DNA of 33,311 nt. Source: Bacteroidota bacterium. Lineage in GTDB: Bacteria > Bacteroidota > Bacteroidia > Bacteroidales > UBA7960. The notes under the pieces are model-generated. The model was not told the origin of the DNA. It did no database searches and was given only the letters and a program-made list of their open reading frames with translations. Location: NCBI GenBank assembly GCA_007693555.1, contig REDJ01000093.1:1-33311 (forward strand), read 5' to 3'. The number at the start of each line of letters is the position of its first letter. The stretch's first letter is position 1. Made by a program: the position numbers and the translations under genes. Shown in pieces: positions 4,074-12,175 of this stretch.

Positions 4074-7000
4074 TCAGTTATTGAAAAGACGATTTATAAG
4101 ACTTTCAAAATCAAATGAAGTAACCGGCTTGGTTAAATATTCATCCATGCCCAGATTCATATACTTTTCCCTGTCACCTTCAAAGGCATTGGCACTCAAA
4201 CCCACAATAGGCGGTAATTTTTTATATTTCTTTTTCAGTAATTTAGTAGCTGTAACACCATCCATTACAGGCATTTGAATATCCATCAGGATAAGATCAA
4301 ACTTTTCAGGATCAAATATACTAACTACTTCTTTACCGTTTTTTGCAAGACTTACGTTATGACCAAGTGATTTCAGCATCAGAAATACAACTTTTTGATT
4401 TACAATCTTATCCTCAGCAAAAAGTATACTTAATGCTTTTGTTTTTTCAAGCTTATTTTTTAATTTTTTAATGTCCTGAACCTCATCCATTTGGTTATCT
4501 GAAACTATTTTTGCTTTAAATGTAAACCAGAACATACTCCCTTCACCGGGGGAGCTATCTACACCTATTTCTCCATCCATAAGAGCCACAAGTTCTTTAC
4601 AAATGGATAAACCTAAGCCTGTACCGTCAATATTTCTTGTATCATCTGTTTCTATCTGCTCAAAAGGATTGAAAAGGTGCTCCATACTTTCGGGCTTGAT
4701 TCCTATACCGGTGTCCGTAACCATAACTTTAACAAGCAGGCTCTGGTCATCAAGCCATTTTGCGGGTTGAGCTTCAATTATAATTTTTCCCTTATGGGTA
4801 AATTTTACTGCATTAGACAAAAGATTGTTAATAATCTGGCTGATACGGTATTCATCTGCTTCAATTACTTCTGGTAATTCAGGGTCAAGGTATGTTTCAA
4901 GGATTATATCTTTTTTACAAATGGAGCTATAAAGTTTTTTTGCATTTTCAAACATGAAGTCCTTTCTGAATTGCCGCATTTTGAGTTGCAATTGACCTGC
5001 CTCAATTTTTGAATAATCCAGTATTTGATTAATTATCTCCCTGAGGTTTTCAGTGGATAATCGCAGCGTATTTACATAATCAAGTTGGTTATGATCGAGT
5101 TTGGTTTGGGATAGTATTTCAATCATACCCAGCACACCAGTTAACGGAGTGCGTATTTCATGGCTCATATTTGCCAGAAAGTTTTGCTTAAATAAAACAG
5201 TTTGGTTGGCAACAGCTACCTGGCTTCTGAGACTTTCATTATGTTTGCGTTCAGTGATATCTCTCATGATACCCAGAATAACGATCTTTTCTTTTGTGCT
5301 CATGGGAGTTGTACTTATCTCTATATCGCATATCTCTCCGGATTTTCTTTTGATTTGCAACTCATAAATTCCAGGAATATCCTTGCCTTGCAATCTGGCC
5401 TGTTTTCTCTCTTCAGCAATTTTTTTGCTCTTCTCTGTAAAAAGCGACCACAAGCTAAAATCCGGTGAACAAATCTCATCTGCAGAAAGTCCGGTAATTT
5501 CACAAAAGCGTTGGTTTACATATTGAAACTGTTCGTTTTCCAATAGATAAATCCCATCAAATGCATTTTCAGTTAAAATCCTGTATTTTTTTTCAGAAGC
5601 TTTCACAGCATCTTCTGCTTGTTTATGGTCTGTAATATCCTGATAAGTGCCCAATACACCCATTATCTGACCGTTAATATCCTCCAGTGGTATTTTGCTT
5701 GTAAGCAGCCATTTTTGCTCACCCTGAGGTCCGGTTTGAGGTTCTTCGAAATTTAATTTTGGTTTACGGCTTTGAATCACCAAACGATCATCAGCCTGGT
5801 ATAAAGCTGCCTGATCCATCCAAACCATATCAAAGTCATTTTTGCCGATGAGTTCCTCCGTGGAATGCAAACCTGCATCACGTGCAAAAGCCTGGTTACA
5901 CCCAAGGTAATTCAAATTCAAATCTTTCCAGAAAACTCTCACCTTAATGGTATCCAAAACATTACGAAGCATTTGACGAGAATGGGTCAACCCGATTTCA
6001 GCTTTTTTTCTTTCAAAAGCATTATAAACCAAATCGGCAAATACCTTTAAAATTTTCACTTCGTAATCCACCCATTCGCGTTTCTTTCTGACCGAATCAA
6101 ACCCAACAAAACCAACAAGCTTTTCCTGAGAAATAATGGGTACAACAAAAAGTGATTTTACTTCCTGTGGTTCAAGTATTTGCTTTTCAACCTCCCACTC
6201 TTTCGGAAGTTGACTAACATCGTAGATATTTATGGGATTAAATTTATTAAGCTCTGCCATCCATTGCGGAATTTCGCCACATGGTAATTCCTGAAGATAT
6301 TCAATCTGGGATGTAATACCCTTGTTGCACCATTCATGCGTATTTTGCAATGTATTTGTGGTTTCGTGCCAGATAAAAATATATGAGCGATCAATATCAC
6401 AAAATTTGCCGATTTTTTCTATGGCAAGATTCAGAATTTCATCAAACCGCTCAACAGACATATTAACAAAGTGAGAAGAAATATCAAGCAAAAGTCTTTC
6501 GAAAGCCTTGCGCTTATCCATCATGACTTCCAGCCTTTTTTGCTGGGTAATATCGAATACTATTCCGGTCCAAAGCGTCTGATCTTCATTTAATACCCGG
6601 GGTTCGGACTCAATACGCAGCCATTTTATTTCGCCATCCTTAAAAATGCGTCCTTCCCATCTAAAAGGTTTCCTGGTTTTTACAGCCTCATAGTTTTTAT
6701 CATAAAAACTCTTCAAGTCTTCAAAATGAATCATTTGGGTGATTAATTCCGATTTTGTAAATAAATCGGAATTGGAAATACCGGTTATTATCTCATGTTG
6801 ATCATTTAAAAACTCATACTTTAAAAGAGGCAATTGATCTCTGGTAAAGTTTATATCATTTCTTTGCAAAAGCCGGTATATTCCTGCGGGTTGTGCATTT
6901 ACCAGATCTTTGTAAAGTGATTCATTCCTTTGGCTTATTTTAAATGATTCCTGCAGTTTATTGTATTGCAGGGTTAAATAAATTACCAGAACCAAAGTAA

Positions 7001-7118
7001 CCAGAAAAGAAACGAAAACGTAAACCGGCAGATTGCTTAACAAGAGCGAAAGGACAGCATAAAGAAGAGTTATTATTAAAATGAGAAAGCTAATCAGATG
7101 TATGCGTGAAAACTGCAT
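4074..7118 (-). CDS. Hybrid sensor histidine kinase with PAS, GAF and receiver domains
   Basis: This 1014-residue signalling protein has two adjacent transmembrane helices at its N-terminus (about 8-28 and 30-50) with almost no extracellular loop. Sensing is therefore probably cytoplasmic or within the membrane. Domains in order are PAS (~65-195), GAF (~205-370), PAS (~385-500), PAS (~508-625), HisKA with phospho-acceptor His653 in NMSHEIRTPLTG, HATPase_c (N box NNLLSNAVKF at 764-773, G boxes DTGIGI and GTGLGLS), and a C-terminal receiver with acidic residues Glu902/Asp903, phospho-acceptor Asp946 (LMDIQMPVMDG) and Lys997. No Hpt or DNA-binding output domain is present. The catalytic and receiver modules are closely similar to those of the kinase at 8357-10537, which implies duplication. 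It sits 290 nt downstream of the methyltransferase. Confidence 0.93.
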   Translation of the reverse strand: MQFSRIHLISFLILIITLLYAVLSLLLSNLPVYVFVSFLVTLVLVIYLTLQYNKLQESFKISQRNESLYKDLVNAQPAGIYRLLQRNDINFTRDQLPLLKYEFLNDQHEIITGISNSDLFTKSELITQMIHFEDLKSFYDKNYEAVKTRKPFRWEGRIFKDGEIKWLRIESEPRVLNEDQTLWTGIVFDITQQKRLEVMMDKRKAFERLLLDISSHFVNMSVERFDEILNLAIEKIGKFCDIDRSYIFIWHETTNTLQNTHEWCNKGITSQIEYLQELPCGEIPQWMAELNKFNPINIYDVSQLPKEWEVEKQILEPQEVKSLFVVPIISQEKLVGFVGFDSVRKKREWVDYEVKILKVFADLVYNAFERKKAEIGLTHSRQMLRNVLDTIKVRVFWKDLNLNYLGCNQAFARDAGLHSTEELIGKNDFDMVWMDQAALYQADDRLVIQSRKPKLNFEEPQTGPQGEQKWLLTSKIPLEDINGQIMGVLGTYQDITDHKQAEDAVKASEKKYRILTENAFDGIYLLENEQFQYVNQRFCEITGLSADEICSPDFSLWSLFTEKSKKIAEERKQARLQGKDIPGIYELQIKRKSGEICDIEISTTPMSTKEKIVILGIMRDITERKHNESLRSQVAVANQTVLFKQNFLANMSHEIRTPLTGVLGMIEILSQTKLDHNQLDYVNTLRLSTENLREIINQILDYSKIEAGQLQLKMRQFRKDFMFENAKKLYSSICKKDIILETYLDPELPEVIEADEYRISQIINNLLSNAVKFTHKGKIIIEAQPAKWLDDQSLLVKVMVTDTGIGIKPESMEHLFNPFEQIETDDTRNIDGTGLGLSICKELVALMDGEIGVDSSPGEGSMFWFTFKAKIVSDNQMDEVQDIKKLKNKLEKTKALSILFAEDKIVNQKVVFLMLKSLGHNVSLAKNGKEVVSIFDPEKFDLILMDIQMPVMDGVTATKLLKKKYKKLPPIVGLSANAFEGDREKYMNLGMDEYLTKPVTSFDFESLINRLFNN

Positions 7119-7408
7119 GATGATTTGTCTTTAATAATATCATTTTGATAAAATATGCCGTTGGCATATCTGAATTTTTAACAGGTATTTTTTGTCTCTG
7201 TTATTGGTATAAACCCATTAAAAATCAGGTAAAGATGAAAAAAAATAAGAGATGCAATATCCGTGATTCTGGGATTTATGGAATGATGTAAATACCTGAA
7301 AAAATCAATATTTTACTTAGCTTTATTAAGAAAATCTCAGATGACTCAAAGAAACCAATAAAAATACTTTTTGATCAAAAAGCAGAAGAAAATCCAGTTA
7401 ATCAAGGG
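7119..7408. other. Intergenic spacer with two inverted repeats
   Basis: This 290-nt AT-rich spacer separates the methyltransferase from the large hybrid kinase downstream of it. It contains a compact palindrome, ATATGCC-gtt-GGCATAT (7153-7169), 35 nt upstream of the kinase start, and a wider inverted repeat, CAGGTATTT (7182-7190) with AAATACCTG (7290-7298). No strong terminator or exact TAnnTTTG box was found on the minus strand. The palindrome could be an operator or a small hairpin; that is inference. Confidence 0.4.
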
Positions 7409-8302
7409 CTATTGAGAATTTTTAAGCCTGATTGAGCCATTGCTTTTTATAACTTTTAAAAAAAGATTAATTCCCAGAGGTTCGCTGATAACCTCCAAAT
7501 CTTTATCAGAAACACCTACCTCCAGAGCAAAGTTTTTTAACTGGCCGGGAGTACGATGATAAAGATACCAATCACCCAAAACCTCCATAATTTTACGAGA
7601 GGGATTATTGTTACTGAAGTTACCAATAATCATCTGGCCACCTTCGTTTAAAAAAACATAAAACCTTCTTAAAAGGCGTGAGAACAATCTGTCATGGAAA
7701 TAATCAAATAATCCGGCGCTCCAGATAAGATCATAGCATTCGGGAGGAGCGAAACGAAGAACATTCTGATTGTGAAATGTAATAAAATCGAGGTATTTTT
7801 TATTTTTCTCCTTCGCGTATTCAATTGCCCTCTGATCAAAATCAATCAGATCAAAATACAGAAAATTATCTCTCACCTTCGAAAAATATTCATTTATTTC
7901 GGTTGCAGGACCACTTCCCAGGATTAAAACCTTTTTGGGTTGTTTGCCCGATGAAGCATTCAAAGTGTTGAGCAACTCTACTGCCATATCCTTACGATTA
8001 ATAACAGCAGTTGTTGCAGGCATACGGTGGAAAAACTCTTCCCATTTAATATAGTCGGCATTTTTGTGATGCTGGTAAATTTTTTCAATCATCTGATAGT
8101 CTCCACTATAACCCAATGGTTTGTTAAAACAGTGAGCAATTACAGTGTCTGCCTGATATACAGGCTCCATCAATTCTCTTATTTGCTCAATTTCTTCGGG
8201 TGTAGAAATTTGTTCTACCGAATGAATTATATCACCGAACTCTTCGACCAATGGTCCTTTCTGTGCGAGTATTTTTTTTATTTTTAAGACGTAGGCACTC
8301 AC
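7409..8302 (-). CDS. Class I SAM-dependent methyltransferase, PhcB-like
   Basis: This 297-residue soluble protein carries the SAM-binding Rossmann motifs: motif I VLILGSGPATE (125-135), an acidic motif-II strand DLIDFD (151-156), and YDLIWSAGLFDYFHDRL (190-206). Before the fold, residues 60-69 read NKPLGYSGDY, and near the end there is a DWYLYHRT stretch (244-251). I associate these signatures with the methyltransferase family that includes Ralstonia PhcB, which makes 3-hydroxy fatty acid methyl ester signals; this rests on memory of motifs. The only plausible start is a GTG at 8302 with no clear Shine-Dalgarno. The gene lies 54 nt after the six-TM hybrid kinase and in the same reading frame, so translation is probably coupled. 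The substrate is unknown: a fatty acid, another small molecule or a protein are all possible. Confidence 0.8.
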   Translation of the reverse strand: MSAYVLKIKKILAQKGPLVEEFGDIIHSVEQISTPEEIEQIRELMEPVYQADTVIAHCFNKPLGYSGDYQMIEKIYQHHKNADYIKWEEFFHRMPATTAVINRKDMAVELLNTLNASSGKQPKKVLILGSGPATEINEYFSKVRDNFLYFDLIDFDQRAIEYAKEKNKKYLDFITFHNQNVLRFAPPECYDLIWSAGLFDYFHDRLFSRLLRRFYVFLNEGGQMIIGNFSNNNPSRKIMEVLGDWYLYHRTPGQLKNFALEVGVSDKDLEVISEPLGINLFLKVIKSNGSIRLKNSQ

Positions 8303-8356
8303 TTCAAAATTTTTTTTAATAAGGAAACAAGGAGTGTTAATAGTTTTTAAAATTAA

Positions 8357-10537
8357 CTATTTATTTGTTAATTTCTGCAAAAGTAAAATAAAATCTTCTT
8401 TTTTAACAGGTTTGGTTAAATATTCATCCAAACCCATGCTTAAATATTTCTCCTTGTCACCTTCAAAGGCGTTGGCACTGAGCCCTACGATAGGCGGTAA
8501 TTCTTTGTATTTTGCTCTTAATTTACGAGTGGCAGTAACCCCATCCATAACCGGCATCTGAATATCCATGAGGATCATGTCAAATGCATTGGGTTCAAAT
8601 ATTTCAAGCGCCTGCTTACCGTCATTAACCAAAGTAACTTCATGGCCAAGCGAAGCAAGCATTATGTTAACCACTTTTTGGTTTACAATTTTATCTTCGG
8701 CATACAATATTCTGAGAGGTCCTGTATCTTTCACACCCGATAGTTCGAGGTTTTTCTTTATGTCCTCCCGCGAAATAATCCTGGCTTGAAAATTAAACCA
8801 AAATGTACTTCCTGAACCTTGTTGACTAATTACTCCAATTTCACCACCCATCAAATCGGTTAATTCCTTCGCAATGGACAGGCCAAGCCCTGTTCCCTCA
8901 AAATTTTTATTATCCAAATGTTCAAGCTGACTGAAGGGCTTAAAAAGCTGATCTATTTTTTCAGGATGTATGCCTTCTCCGGTATCAGTAACTTCAATTC
9001 TCAAGAGCAATGTGCCGTCTGCAAGCCATTTTTCAGGCAATGCGAGCAATTCAATACTTCCCTTTTTAGTAAATTTTATTGCATTATTTAAAAGGTTGTT
9101 AATGATTTGTGCAACACGATGGTCGTCTGCTTTGATAAATTCAGGAACCTGGGGATCAATAATTACTATAAGATTTACATCCGGAGGACAGAGACTTTCA
9201 AAAAGTTTCTGTGCATTGTTTATCAATTCATAAAAGTTGAAACCTCTGGGCTTAATAGTTACACGGCCTGCTTCAATTTTTGAATAATCAAGAATCTGGT
9301 TTATGATTTCCCTGAGATTTTCACTTGTAAGTTTTAGTGTTCCGAAATATTCTTTTTGTTCCTTATTCAGGCGCGTTTGTGAAAGAATATCTATCATACC
9401 AATAATACCTGTAAGCGGGGTGCGAATCTCATGGCTCATATTAGCCAGAAATTTCTGCTTAAATTGAACTGACTCCCTTGCGACTGCAATTTGTTTTTCC
9501 AATTGTTGTTTTTCAAGAAACTCCCTTCTGTCTTCTACCAATCCGATACCTCCGCTGGTTTTATTCATATCGGTTTTAATGGGTGCAAAAAGTATCCGAA
9601 CCGGGGTGCCTTTTCCTTTACCTTTTGCTTTGTACCTGCCTTCAAATGAGGCTTTATTTCCTTTTAATACTTGGCCAACAGCGTCAACGACTCTTTTGTC
9701 AGATAGCTCTTTCAGGCTCATTCCTTCAGCAACACTACGAGGTAACCCAATAATATTGGCAAATTGATCGTTACATTCCGTAACTATCCATTTATCATTG
9801 AAATGAAATACCCCAACAGGTGACCGCTCAAAAATCAACCGGTACTTTTCTTCACTCTCCTTAAGCTCCCTGGTGCGATCTTCAACAGCTGATTCAAGGC
9901 CCAGATTGACCTGTTCAAGATCTTTTTGTTTTTGGTCAAGCAGGCGGGATAAATAAAAGTTTCTGCGTCCGGAAAGCTCAAGGTAATAAGAACCGAACAT
10001 CCCAATAAGGTTTGCCGAGACAAAGAAGAAGTTAAAAGCGATGAACAGTTGGGGCTGAATATCCGCAACAAAATACATCATCAGATTGAATAATAACAAA
10101 TTTAACCACCCGCCTAAAGTCGCATAAATAAAGCTCAATCTGGCAAAGAAATAACCCACTGAAAATATCAGCATCAACCCACCGTAGTATGACCAGTTTT
10201 CCGGGGTCATACCAATCATGTAAGTAATGCCACCTCCGCCAACTAAAAATGCAATAAATAAAACCTGCTGCCAGATAAGAAAAAAAAATTTTGTTAAGGA
10301 AAGAATAATAACTGCAATAAGTATGGGAACAACAACACCAAAACGAATGATGAGAAAAGTATGCAAATATTCGGTAACAAATACAGTATCAAGTAGTCCG
10401 AAGAACCCGTACAAAAATGCGGCAAGAAGAAGGGCAACCCTGGTGATTGGGAGCGACTCTTCAAAAAAAGCTTTTTGAAAAAGCAGTTCTTCTCTTTTGT
10501 CAGGAAAAGCTAATGTTATTTTATGCAGTTTAACCAT
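8357..10537 (-). CDS. Six-transmembrane hybrid sensor histidine kinase with PAS and receiver
   Basis: The protein starts at the ATG at 10537 (MVKLHKIT..., 726 residues); a TTG five codons earlier is less likely. Residues ~30-185 form a block of about six hydrophobic helices with little loop, followed by a coiled coil (~195-230) and a PAS domain (~232-345). Next come HisKA with His369 in NMSHEIRTPLTG, HATPase_c (NNLLNNAIKF, DTGEGI, GTGLGLS) and a receiver with Asp658 as phospho-acceptor and Lys709. A compact multi-helix membrane sensor ahead of a kinase is also the layout of PhcS/LqsS-type quorum-sensing kinases, but many unrelated kinases and cyclases share it. It ends with a single TAG; the frame then stays open into the methyltransferase. 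The gene probably forms an operon with that methyltransferase. Confidence 0.92.
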   Translation of the reverse strand: MVKLHKITLAFPDKREELLFQKAFFEESLPITRVALLLAAFLYGFFGLLDTVFVTEYLHTFLIIRFGVVVPILIAVIILSLTKFFFLIWQQVLFIAFLVGGGGITYMIGMTPENWSYYGGLMLIFSVGYFFARLSFIYATLGGWLNLLLFNLMMYFVADIQPQLFIAFNFFFVSANLIGMFGSYYLELSGRRNFYLSRLLDQKQKDLEQVNLGLESAVEDRTRELKESEEKYRLIFERSPVGVFHFNDKWIVTECNDQFANIIGLPRSVAEGMSLKELSDKRVVDAVGQVLKGNKASFEGRYKAKGKGKGTPVRILFAPIKTDMNKTSGGIGLVEDRREFLEKQQLEKQIAVARESVQFKQKFLANMSHEIRTPLTGIIGMIDILSQTRLNKEQKEYFGTLKLTSENLREIINQILDYSKIEAGRVTIKPRGFNFYELINNAQKLFESLCPPDVNLIVIIDPQVPEFIKADDHRVAQIINNLLNNAIKFTKKGSIELLALPEKWLADGTLLLRIEVTDTGEGIHPEKIDQLFKPFSQLEHLDNKNFEGTGLGLSIAKELTDLMGGEIGVISQQGSGSTFWFNFQARIISREDIKKNLELSGVKDTGPLRILYAEDKIVNQKVVNIMLASLGHEVTLVNDGKQALEIFEPNAFDMILMDIQMPVMDGVTATRKLRAKYKELPPIVGLSANAFEGDKEKYLSMGLDEYLTKPVKKEDFILLLQKLTNK

Positions 10538-10855
10538 AATACACCGTCCCAAAATTATTCTTTTTCTTTAAACAGCAGGAAAAACAGCATCAATAGTTTA
10601 AACATAGCAAACTCATACATTACTATATACGACGAAATACTTCAATTAAAGTAATATTTTTTTATTCTAAAAGCTATTTTTTACAACTAATTTCAATTTT
10701 CCTGCAACATTTATTCTTGTTAATAACTTTCATTACCGGCATATCAAATGCATGGAAAATAAGTGACGCTGAAAAACAGTTTTAGTTTTAAATCAATAAA
10801 GTTGTGTAGAAAAGTAGCATACAACCAGATACCAAATTAATCAGAAAGGTTTAAG
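10538..10855. other. Gene-free AT-rich spacer
   Basis: This 318-nt stretch separates the PAS-GAF-PAS protein from the six-TM kinase, both on the minus strand. I found no exact TAnnTTTG promoter box, no convincing hairpin with a T-run and no plausible small ORF. It probably holds the kinase promoter, but I cannot place it. Confidence 0.4.
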
Positions 10856-12175
10856 TTATTTTTTTTCTGTATTTTTTGTTTTTTTACCTGTAGTTCTGTC
10901 GGCTGTGGGATCGGAAATATTAAGTGCAGTAAAGGTTACTCCCAGTGAAATATCCTCCTTGTAAAGGGGAGAAGAGCTTAATAATACTTGTAAAATTTCA
11001 CCACTTTTTGTTTTCCATAAGGTTTCTATGGTACCTAGTCCCGTGTGTTTAATTTGATTGTATTTTTCAGCTCCAACTCTTTCATATTCATTATCATCGG
11101 GGTAAAGAATCCTGGCATTCACTCCGATTAACTCTTCAGGTGTGTATCCTGTCATCCTGCATAAATAATCATTCACTTCAACAAATACCCTGTTCTTGAG
11201 TAATCCCATACCAACAGGGGCTGCCCGAAAGATGCTTTTCAGCTTTTCTTCACTTCTGGCGAGTTGATTCTGGGTTACTTTTTTATGGAATATCTGCATT
11301 ATAATTGCTACCTGGTCGGCCAGTTGACAGGCAAAACTTATTTCATCATGATTCCAGATGCGTTTTTCACCTATATGCTCAATACATAAAACACCCTTGA
11401 AATCACCCTCGGTTTTTATGCCAACATCCAGCATTGAAGTAATTCCTTTTGGTATCAGGTAACCATTTACATAACCCTCAACTCTTTTGTCATTAAGAGC
11501 GTCATGAGCATCAATATATCTGGCTTTTTTCAGATAGTTTATTTCCGAATAGTATTGCACTCCTGATAATACCTCACCGGATGTGTGTTTATTCTTTATA
11601 GCATCATAATTATCAAAACATCTGAGCTTTTCTCCATCTTCATCAAAAAACCACACACCTGCCTGGGCTACCTCCATTACGCGTGCTGCCTTTTCAGTAA
11701 GTAAATTTATAAATTCATAAATATTCCCTTCAGCATAATGCGGTGAGGAAATTATTTCCACGATAGCCTTATAAAACTTCTCCGCCTGCCGTTTTTGTTG
11801 TTGTAGGACCTTTTCAACAGTTAAATCGGCAAATATAAAAATGAGATGATCGTTTTCCGGGCAATACACCCTGATGCGATTCCATCTTTGCATCAAATGA
11901 CAATAATTCTGTACTTCCCGGAGCTCATTCTCCTGAATTTCTCCTGCCAATTTGAGCATCCAGACAATATCAACATTTAAGGAATCAGAGCAGATTGCTT
12001 TTAATTTATCCCCTTTCCGGATTTTTTTCTCCACAGTACAGGCATTTTCGAATGCAGGATTAAAATGCATGACATGAAAATCATAGGGTTTTCCGTCTTT
12101 ATTCCTGAGAGTCTTGCAATAGAGTAAAGCGTTGGGCAGGTGATGAATTACCGATTTAAGAAATTCATTTTTCAT
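10856..12175 (-). CDS. PAS-GAF-PAS sensory protein without kinase domain
   Basis: The 439-residue protein is soluble, with no signal peptide or membrane helix. A PAS-like domain (~8-120) is followed by a coiled-coil linker (~120-140), a GAF domain (~145-295, with LLTEKAARVMEVAQAGVWFF and GVLCIEHIGEKRIWNHDE) and a second PAS domain (~302-422, RAAPVGMGLLKNRVFVEVND...MTGYTPEELIG). It then ends in a Lys/Thr-rich tail where such proteins normally continue into a histidine kinase or GGDEF domain. The start is well supported by GGAGGG nine bases before the ATG. It is upstream of two hybrid kinases on the same strand and may modulate them. It could be a decayed kinase, but no kinase remnant follows in any frame. 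Confidence 0.82.
   Translation of the reverse strand: MKNEFLKSVIHHLPNALLYCKTLRNKDGKPYDFHVMHFNPAFENACTVEKKIRKGDKLKAICSDSLNVDIVWMLKLAGEIQENELREVQNYCHLMQRWNRIRVYCPENDHLIFIFADLTVEKVLQQQKRQAEKFYKAIVEIISSPHYAEGNIYEFINLLTEKAARVMEVAQAGVWFFDEDGEKLRCFDNYDAIKNKHTSGEVLSGVQYYSEINYLKKARYIDAHDALNDKRVEGYVNGYLIPKGITSMLDVGIKTEGDFKGVLCIEHIGEKRIWNHDEISFACQLADQVAIIMQIFHKKVTQNQLARSEEKLKSIFRAAPVGMGLLKNRVFVEVNDYLCRMTGYTPEELIGVNARILYPDDNEYERVGAEKYNQIKHTGLGTIETLWKTKSGEILQVLLSSSPLYKEDISLGVTFTALNISDPTADRTTGKKTKNTEKK

Follow-up and report, generated by a model that had tools for sequence, protein, structure and literature searches.

The 33,311-nt stretch of DNA analysed here (hereafter the window; positions 1 to 33,311 of contig REDJ01000093.1, assembly GCA_007693555.1, Bacteroidales lineage UBA7960) encodes a class I S-adenosylmethionine (SAM)-dependent methyltransferase (MT) directly behind a hybrid histidine kinase with six transmembrane (TM) helices (HK1). 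We consider it somewhat probable (about 0.58) that the two work as a signal synthase and its receptor in the manner of PhcB and PhcS of the plant pathogen Ralstonia, i.e., as a PhcBS-like pair and not as a Phc system itself. The label "PhcB/PhcS-like", which an initial annotation had given to the locus, appears apt because MT is conserved beside a six-TM kinase and the sensor of this kinase is, judged from profile comparisons, homologous to that of PhcS.

According to the proposed scheme, MT would use SAM to methylate a lipophilic metabolite, in the simplest case the carboxyl group of a 3-hydroxy (or related) fatty acid. The methylated product would leave the cell, and the six-helix membrane domain of HK1 would sense it and set autophosphorylation and the phosphorelay. 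We infer that the MT product could be the ligand of HK1, an exported methyl ester that would report cell density. The features of the pair are the following:

8357..10552, minus strand: HK1, 6TM-PAS-HisKA-HATPase-REC hybrid sensor kinase, proposed receptor
9848..10537, minus strand: HK1 six-helix membrane sensor domain, predicted to be homologous to the PhcS sensor and to have a fold like that of adenylyl cyclase membrane anchors
9527..9850, minus strand: HK1 PAS domain (Pfam)
9266..9460, minus strand: HK1 HisKA phospho-acceptor domain, motif MSHEIRTP
8783..9127, minus strand: HK1 HATPase_c domain (Pfam)
8387..8710, minus strand: HK1 receiver (REC) domain (Pfam)
7409..8302, minus strand: MT, class I SAM-dependent methyltransferase, proposed signal synthase

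HK1 has 731 aa if translated from the TTG at 10552; the ATG at 10537 agrees better with the relatives and is the likelier start. Pfam recognizes its PAS, HisKA, HATPase and REC domains and leaves the N terminus unmatched, the sensor domain giving no Pfam match up to E 0.1. Hydropathy alone counts five membrane segments in this region, while the AlphaFold model of residues 1-235 (predicted local distance difference test, pLDDT, 88.8) shows the six helices that had been initially assigned. MT follows after 54 bp, begins with GTG and comprises 297 aa with the motifs KPLGYSGDY and SAGLFDY.

Examination of gene neighbourhoods, as advised in the initial annotation, found the pairing of MT with a kinase conserved across Bacteroidota. 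The refuting condition named there, a pairing absent from every relative, thus did not apply. The set of relatives consisted of 41 genomes, 14 of which yielded 15 strong MT matches (weak matches in G040, G013 and on contig C86 of G007 were dropped from the counts). At 12 of the 15 loci, a kinase with an HK1-type six-helix domain is encoded in the same direction and separated from MT by no more than two genes. Two further loci, in G004 and G012, are cut off by a contig end, and their kinase lies close to the end of a different contig. The remaining one is a second MT copy in the window's own genome. In the genus of the window, the order is HK1 before MT in the seven loci that hold both on one contig, and the gap measures 15-54 bp.

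The wider order was sampled with 247 genomes. MT was present in 17 of these, from which G487 was set aside, giving 16 MT genomes; G487 contains two tandem MT-like domains within a 2778-aa open frame (contig C4, 505729-507354), both left out of the counts. The HK1-type sensor occurred in 29 of the 247 genomes, namely in 15 of the 16 MT genomes vs 14 of the 231 others (Fisher p 3e-15, kinship among the genomes being ignored). Beyond the set of relatives, this sample contributed 11 MT loci: eight adjacent to the kinase with at most three genes between (G403, G442, G448, G491, G503, G527, G538 and G543, the kinase of G448 being split over two frames), one at a contig edge (G367), one unlinked (G402) and one in a sensor-free genome (G475). 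In G402 (L209 and L210, contigs C64 and C45), MT stands alone on one contig and the other carries the sensor kinase in the vicinity of REC-HisKA_2 and REC-LytTR genes, i.e., the operon is split.

Three gene orders were distinguished. Arrangement A, that of the window genus, reads 6TM-PAS-HK-REC followed by MT, where HK denotes the histidine kinase core. In arrangement B, the 6TM-HK gene is followed by REC-HisKA_2, REC-LytTR and then MT; a REC domain is fused to the kinase in G019, G024, G017 and partly G012, or encoded by the next gene in G403, G491, G503 and partly G367. Arrangement C (G031, G038, G442, G448, G527, G538, G543) begins with MT, followed by 6TM-HK-REC and REC. The PAS domain is present in the kinases of the window genus and absent from the aligned kinases of arrangements B and C, and the kinases of arrangement C show HDFNN in place of HEIRTP in the HisKA motif. 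Between arrangements, identity across 16 loci ranged from 21 to 35% for the kinase core, from 36 to 43% for the sensor and from 42 to 52% for MT. Because the core diverges more than either sensor or MT, the MT-sensor pairing outlasts changes of the kinase core.

The B operons thus add a DNA-binding output, REC-LytTR, that the window is without. The initial annotation had seen no output partner for the kinases; this holds for the window but not for the B relatives, which encode REC-HisKA_2 and REC-LytTR between kinase and MT. A LytTR gene on contig C41 of the window's genome, a 45% relative, was considered as the missing partner and rejected. It looks like a separate paralogue, since it has counterparts in G017, G019 and G024, all of which keep the linked copy. 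A search for the REC-HisKA_2 partner elsewhere in the window's genome returned partial relatives only.

The relation of the HK1 sensor to PhcS was assessed with hhalign. A profile of HK1-type sensors (21 rows) matched one of PhcS-type sensors (22 rows, some contributed by longer PhcS-like kinases that occur outside Betaproteobacteria) at 99.1%, with E 1.3e-18 over 188 columns. Another pair of alignments yielded 98.4%, while reversed profiles reached at most 1.4%; the weak sensor match L179 had been removed from profile Bn. Single sequences also scored highly, 96.3% for the sensor domain of the window and 95.8% for PhcS of Ralstonia pickettii. As controls, 20 multi-TM proteins encoded at the same loci stayed at or below 5.3%; proteins with a BLAST match to the sensor were excluded from these controls by design, and seven of the 20 contain a kinase core, including green sulfur kinases. 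On this profile evidence, the HK1 sensor is homologous to the six-helix sensor of PhcS.

After realignment of the sensor model, the first 12 rows were the diguanylate cyclase ImcA and membrane adenylyl cyclases (Z 13.4-17.4, although helical bundles may reach Z 13 through arrangement alone), with the next row at 8.6; the mycobacterial Rv1625c row was weak (Z 7.8, root-mean-square deviation, rmsd, 8.0). The PhcS-type membrane domain itself (L033, 6929-8266) gave a single weak Pfam match below the cut-off, MASE8 with E 0.0044, so the PhcS-type sensor seems to be without a Pfam model of its own.

For MT, Pfam returned general methyltransferase models only, and no NCBIfam model names it, the best being BioC with 31.9 bits vs a cut-off of 184.95. 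MT is a class I methyltransferase with both KPxGYxGD and AGLFDY, the motif criterion used for PhcB. Its best match on a plasmid is a Paraburkholderia PhcB-type protein with 25% identity along almost the whole of MT; genes for a kinase and two regulators lie behind it. By these sequence criteria, MT and PhcB belong to the same "KPxGYxGD" superfamily. In a tree of 44 rows (Pantoea L184, which is without the motif, was left out), the 14 PhcB rows form one clade (99/94) without MT, and MT falls within a separate clade of Bacteroidota and green sulfur bacteria (99/99). The Ralstonia and Cupriavidus PhcB rows are 463-470 aa long with the motif at residue 219, whereas MT places it at residue 61; PhcB carries an N-terminal extension of about 160 residues (158 more than MT) that MT does not have. 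An orthology of MT with PhcB was rejected on the basis of the tree, and the missing extension agrees with this. The initial comparison with PhcB/PhcS is borne out for the pairing and the sensor but not for MT, and the block contains neither phcR nor phcQ. The structural model of MT (pLDDT 94.1) has its nearest solved fold in 3ocj, a Bordetella parapertussis methyltransferase with function unknown (Z 20.8, 249 residues, rmsd 3.7, 20% identity). The fold matches of MT are too general for naming a substrate.

Sampling of the phylum (296 genomes, MT in 12; without the genome of the window, 11 genomes with 12 loci remain) placed seven MT loci beside a multi-TM kinase, one at a contig edge and four without such a kinase (G289, two in G294, and G054; BLAST against reference domains). 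The seven adjacent loci (L159-L164 and L170) come from one family whose genomes encode the FMO protein in eight of eight cases, which identifies them as green sulfur bacteria. Here, MT relatives stand beside multi-TM hybrid kinases in two gene orders; the kinases have three to six membrane segments by hydropathy alone, and the MT gene of L170 is split over two frames. For two of these kinases scanned in NCBIfam, the best match was LuxN, in the kinase core and far under the family cut-off. Alanine dehydrogenase genes lie near some of these MT loci. For the green sulfur Prosthecochloris, one paper reports the cholera autoinducer 1 (CAI-1) system alone (PMC10158934), and the published accounts consulted mention only cqsA/cqsS in green sulfur bacteria.

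Altogether, 38 MT loci in Bacteroidota, green sulfur bacteria included, comprised 27 adjacent to a multi-TM kinase (on the MT strand, with at most three genes between), four at contig edges that break off on the side where the partner kinase would sit, one unlinked and six without such a kinase. The 27 consist of 20 with the HK1-type sensor and the seven green sulfur loci with a different membrane domain.

The pair is flanked by two further genes on the same strand:

10856..12175, minus strand: PAS-GAF-PAS protein (Pfam), without a kinase domain or an output domain
4074..7118, minus strand: HK2, PAS/GAF hybrid kinase of 1014 aa

Transcription runs from PAS-GAF-PAS (12175-10856) through HK1 (10552-8357), MT (8302-7409) and HK2 (7118-4074) to xseA (4003-2612). 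The first four reading frames are intact, and frames, motifs and Pfam agree with the layout initially described, in which the methyltransferase directly follows a six-TM hybrid kinase and precedes a second one (PAS, GAF, HisKA, HATPase and REC in Pfam), with PAS-GAF-PAS upstream. The idea that all four genes make up a system did not survive the comparison. An HK2 orthologue lies near MT in three of the six same-genus loci with a readable downstream side (the window, L019 and L024; three of eight overall), and in L019 two further kinase genes separate it from MT. PAS-GAF-PAS adjoins HK1 in the window only, one of the seven same-genus loci with HK1 and MT on one contig. Both were rejected as parts of the system for this lack of conservation; the conserved unit is HK1 plus MT and smaller than the four-gene block. 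A Bacteroidota-type promoter pattern matched twice in the window vs 1.9 matches expected.

A second MT copy exists in the window's genome on a 4.9-kb contig (L031, G000 contig C98, 2794-3768), 38% identical to MT and 673 bp behind genes for a LytS-like kinase and a LytTR regulator, both identified by eye. G475 encodes a relative of this copy (51%) without LytS-like or LytTR neighbours.

Several observations weigh against MT and HK1 acting as synthase and receptor. Besides lying outside the PhcB clade, the MT clade joins cyclic nucleotide (cNMP)-type and polyketide synthase (PKS)-type methyltransferases (97/84, long branches flagged). MT relatives occur beside EAL/GGDEF genes of cyclic di-GMP metabolism, with an N-terminal cyclic-nucleotide-binding-like region judged by eye (L168, 5541-6998), and inside a type I PKS, so the family is not confined to the making of signals. 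The six of 38 MT loci without a multi-TM kinase include the second copy in the window's genome, on its short contig. In the phylum sample, co-occurrence of MT with the HK1-type sensor was weak (2/12, p 0.057). The sensor was found without MT in six of 20 relatives, 14 of 29 order genomes and eight of 10 phylum genomes that bear it, so it need not sense the MT product. Profile comparison detected no relation between the membrane domain of the green sulfur MT-linked kinases and the HK1 sensor, and a Foldseek search with the sensor model produced nothing at E 0.001 or below (best 3.8e-3). A distance correlation failed to separate the sensor from the kinase core as the counterpart of MT (r 0.908 and 0.914; 17 of the 20 adjacent HK1-type loci entered, 16 used, the motif search having missed the histidine of G538).

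Part of these findings would suit an arrangement in which HK1 responds to a different hydrophobic cue and MT, co-transcribed with HK1, serves as an output or as a modulator inside the cell, making a methylated lipid or metabolite or methylating a membrane or signalling component. The frequent sensors without MT and the varied company of the MT relatives fit this, but the pairing persists through changed kinase cores, regulators and gene orders. In addition, the sensor paired with MT is related to the PhcS sensor, and Ralstonia PhcS is reported to sense the methyl ester of 3-hydroxymyristic acid (3-OH MAME), the product of a superfamily member (PMC11960443). We regard a role as output or modulator as rather unlikely. 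It is improbable that the locus is a true Phc system, in which MT would be orthologous to PhcB and make 3-hydroxy fatty acid methyl esters, with HK1 as PhcS. The common motifs, the identity to the PhcB-type protein over most of MT and the sensor homology would agree with it, but the tree, the missing extension, the absence of PhcR and PhcQ from the block and the PAS and REC domains of HK1, foreign to the PhcS-type kinase, argue against it.

The idea that MT acts on protein carboxyl groups as CheR does, tuning the kinase or a receptor, has very little going for it: one family member is annotated as CheR, two CheR chains appeared at E 0.8 in a search of Protein Data Bank (PDB) sequences, and the match to PF01739 (18.7 bits) falls under the 27-bit cut-off, while the general methyltransferase models and the 3ocj fold fit better. 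No CheR chain was among the 50 fold matches listed for MT, which excludes nothing. Finally, the genes could be neighbours by chance or through an unrearranged lineage, and same-genus loci do have some flanks in common (DUF5686, XseA). The rearranged orders, three of them in several families and two in green sulfur bacteria, refute this explanation, to which we give almost no credence.

If the preferred reading of MT and HK1 as a PhcBS-like pair is right, its conservation in different families of one Bacteroidota order would bring methyl-ester-type signalling to that phylum. To our knowledge, few signal synthases are known in Bacteroidota. The literature searched, which did not cover subscription journals, contained no paper on PhcB in this phylum. 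Tentatively, and with slightly more doubt than confidence, we suggest an undescribed Bacteroidota quorum-sensing family in which a methyltransferase would make the autoinducer and a six-helix kinase of PhcS type would receive it, with a REC-HisKA_2/REC-LytTR relay added in several families. Green sulfur members of the MT clade adjoin another multi-TM kinase, LuxN-like in its core and without detectable relation to the first, and on this reading a synthase-receptor pairing would have arisen or re-partnered more than once. The defined gene pair, with the LytTR output of relatives, is offered as a testable system, and it would tie a candidate quorum receptor and a candidate ligand maker to the adenylyl cyclase anchor fold.

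Among known systems, Phc (phcBSRQ of Ralstonia, Cupriavidus and Paraburkholderia) comes closest, as it likewise places a methyltransferase of this superfamily next to a kinase with a homologous six-helix sensor. PhcB is reported to make the methyl ester of 3-hydroxypalmitic acid (3-OH PAME) or 3-OH MAME, and the single study of its distribution that we found, a survey of Proteobacteria, describes the phc cluster as restricted to Betaproteobacteria (PMC10653808). Our scan for named PhcB, with an alignment headed by the Paraburkholderia plasmid protein, used the best 80 of at least 571 confirmed loci, including R. pickettii, other Ralstonia and Cupriavidus, and is for this reason biased to close PhcB. 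A PhcS-like kinase directly follows PhcB in 79 of these 80 loci and the remaining one ends at a contig edge; for ten of the adjacent kinases, the BLAST match was confined to the kinase core. PhcB relatives outside Betaproteobacteria (L104-L108, L110-L112, L114, L115) adjoin a PhcS-like kinase of 861-896 aa; they come from metagenome-assembled genomes labelled Thiotrichaceae, Planctomycetota, Hyphomicrobiaceae and others, and from one Salinisphaera isolate.

The PhcS-type kinase consists of sensor, HisKA and HATPase in about 445 aa without PAS or REC, whereas HK1 has a PAS and a fused REC domain in its 731 aa. The Phc operon includes phcR and phcQ beside phcBS, whereas the genes of the window block show other domain layouts and the arrangement B relatives carry REC-HisKA_2 and REC-LytTR in their place. 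Receptors of the CqsS/LqsS/LuxN type are likewise multi-TM sensor kinases beside a putative signal synthase; the synthases CqsA and LqsA are aminotransferase-type enzymes. The six-TM anchors of adenylyl cyclases and ImcA resemble the HK1 sensor model in helix arrangement, but the adenylyl cyclase anchors are joined to cyclases and the HK1 sensor is joined to a kinase. An eLife study exchanged such a cyclase anchor for the six-TM domain of the CqsS quorum receptor and reports that CAI-1 then regulated the cyclase (PMC4821796).

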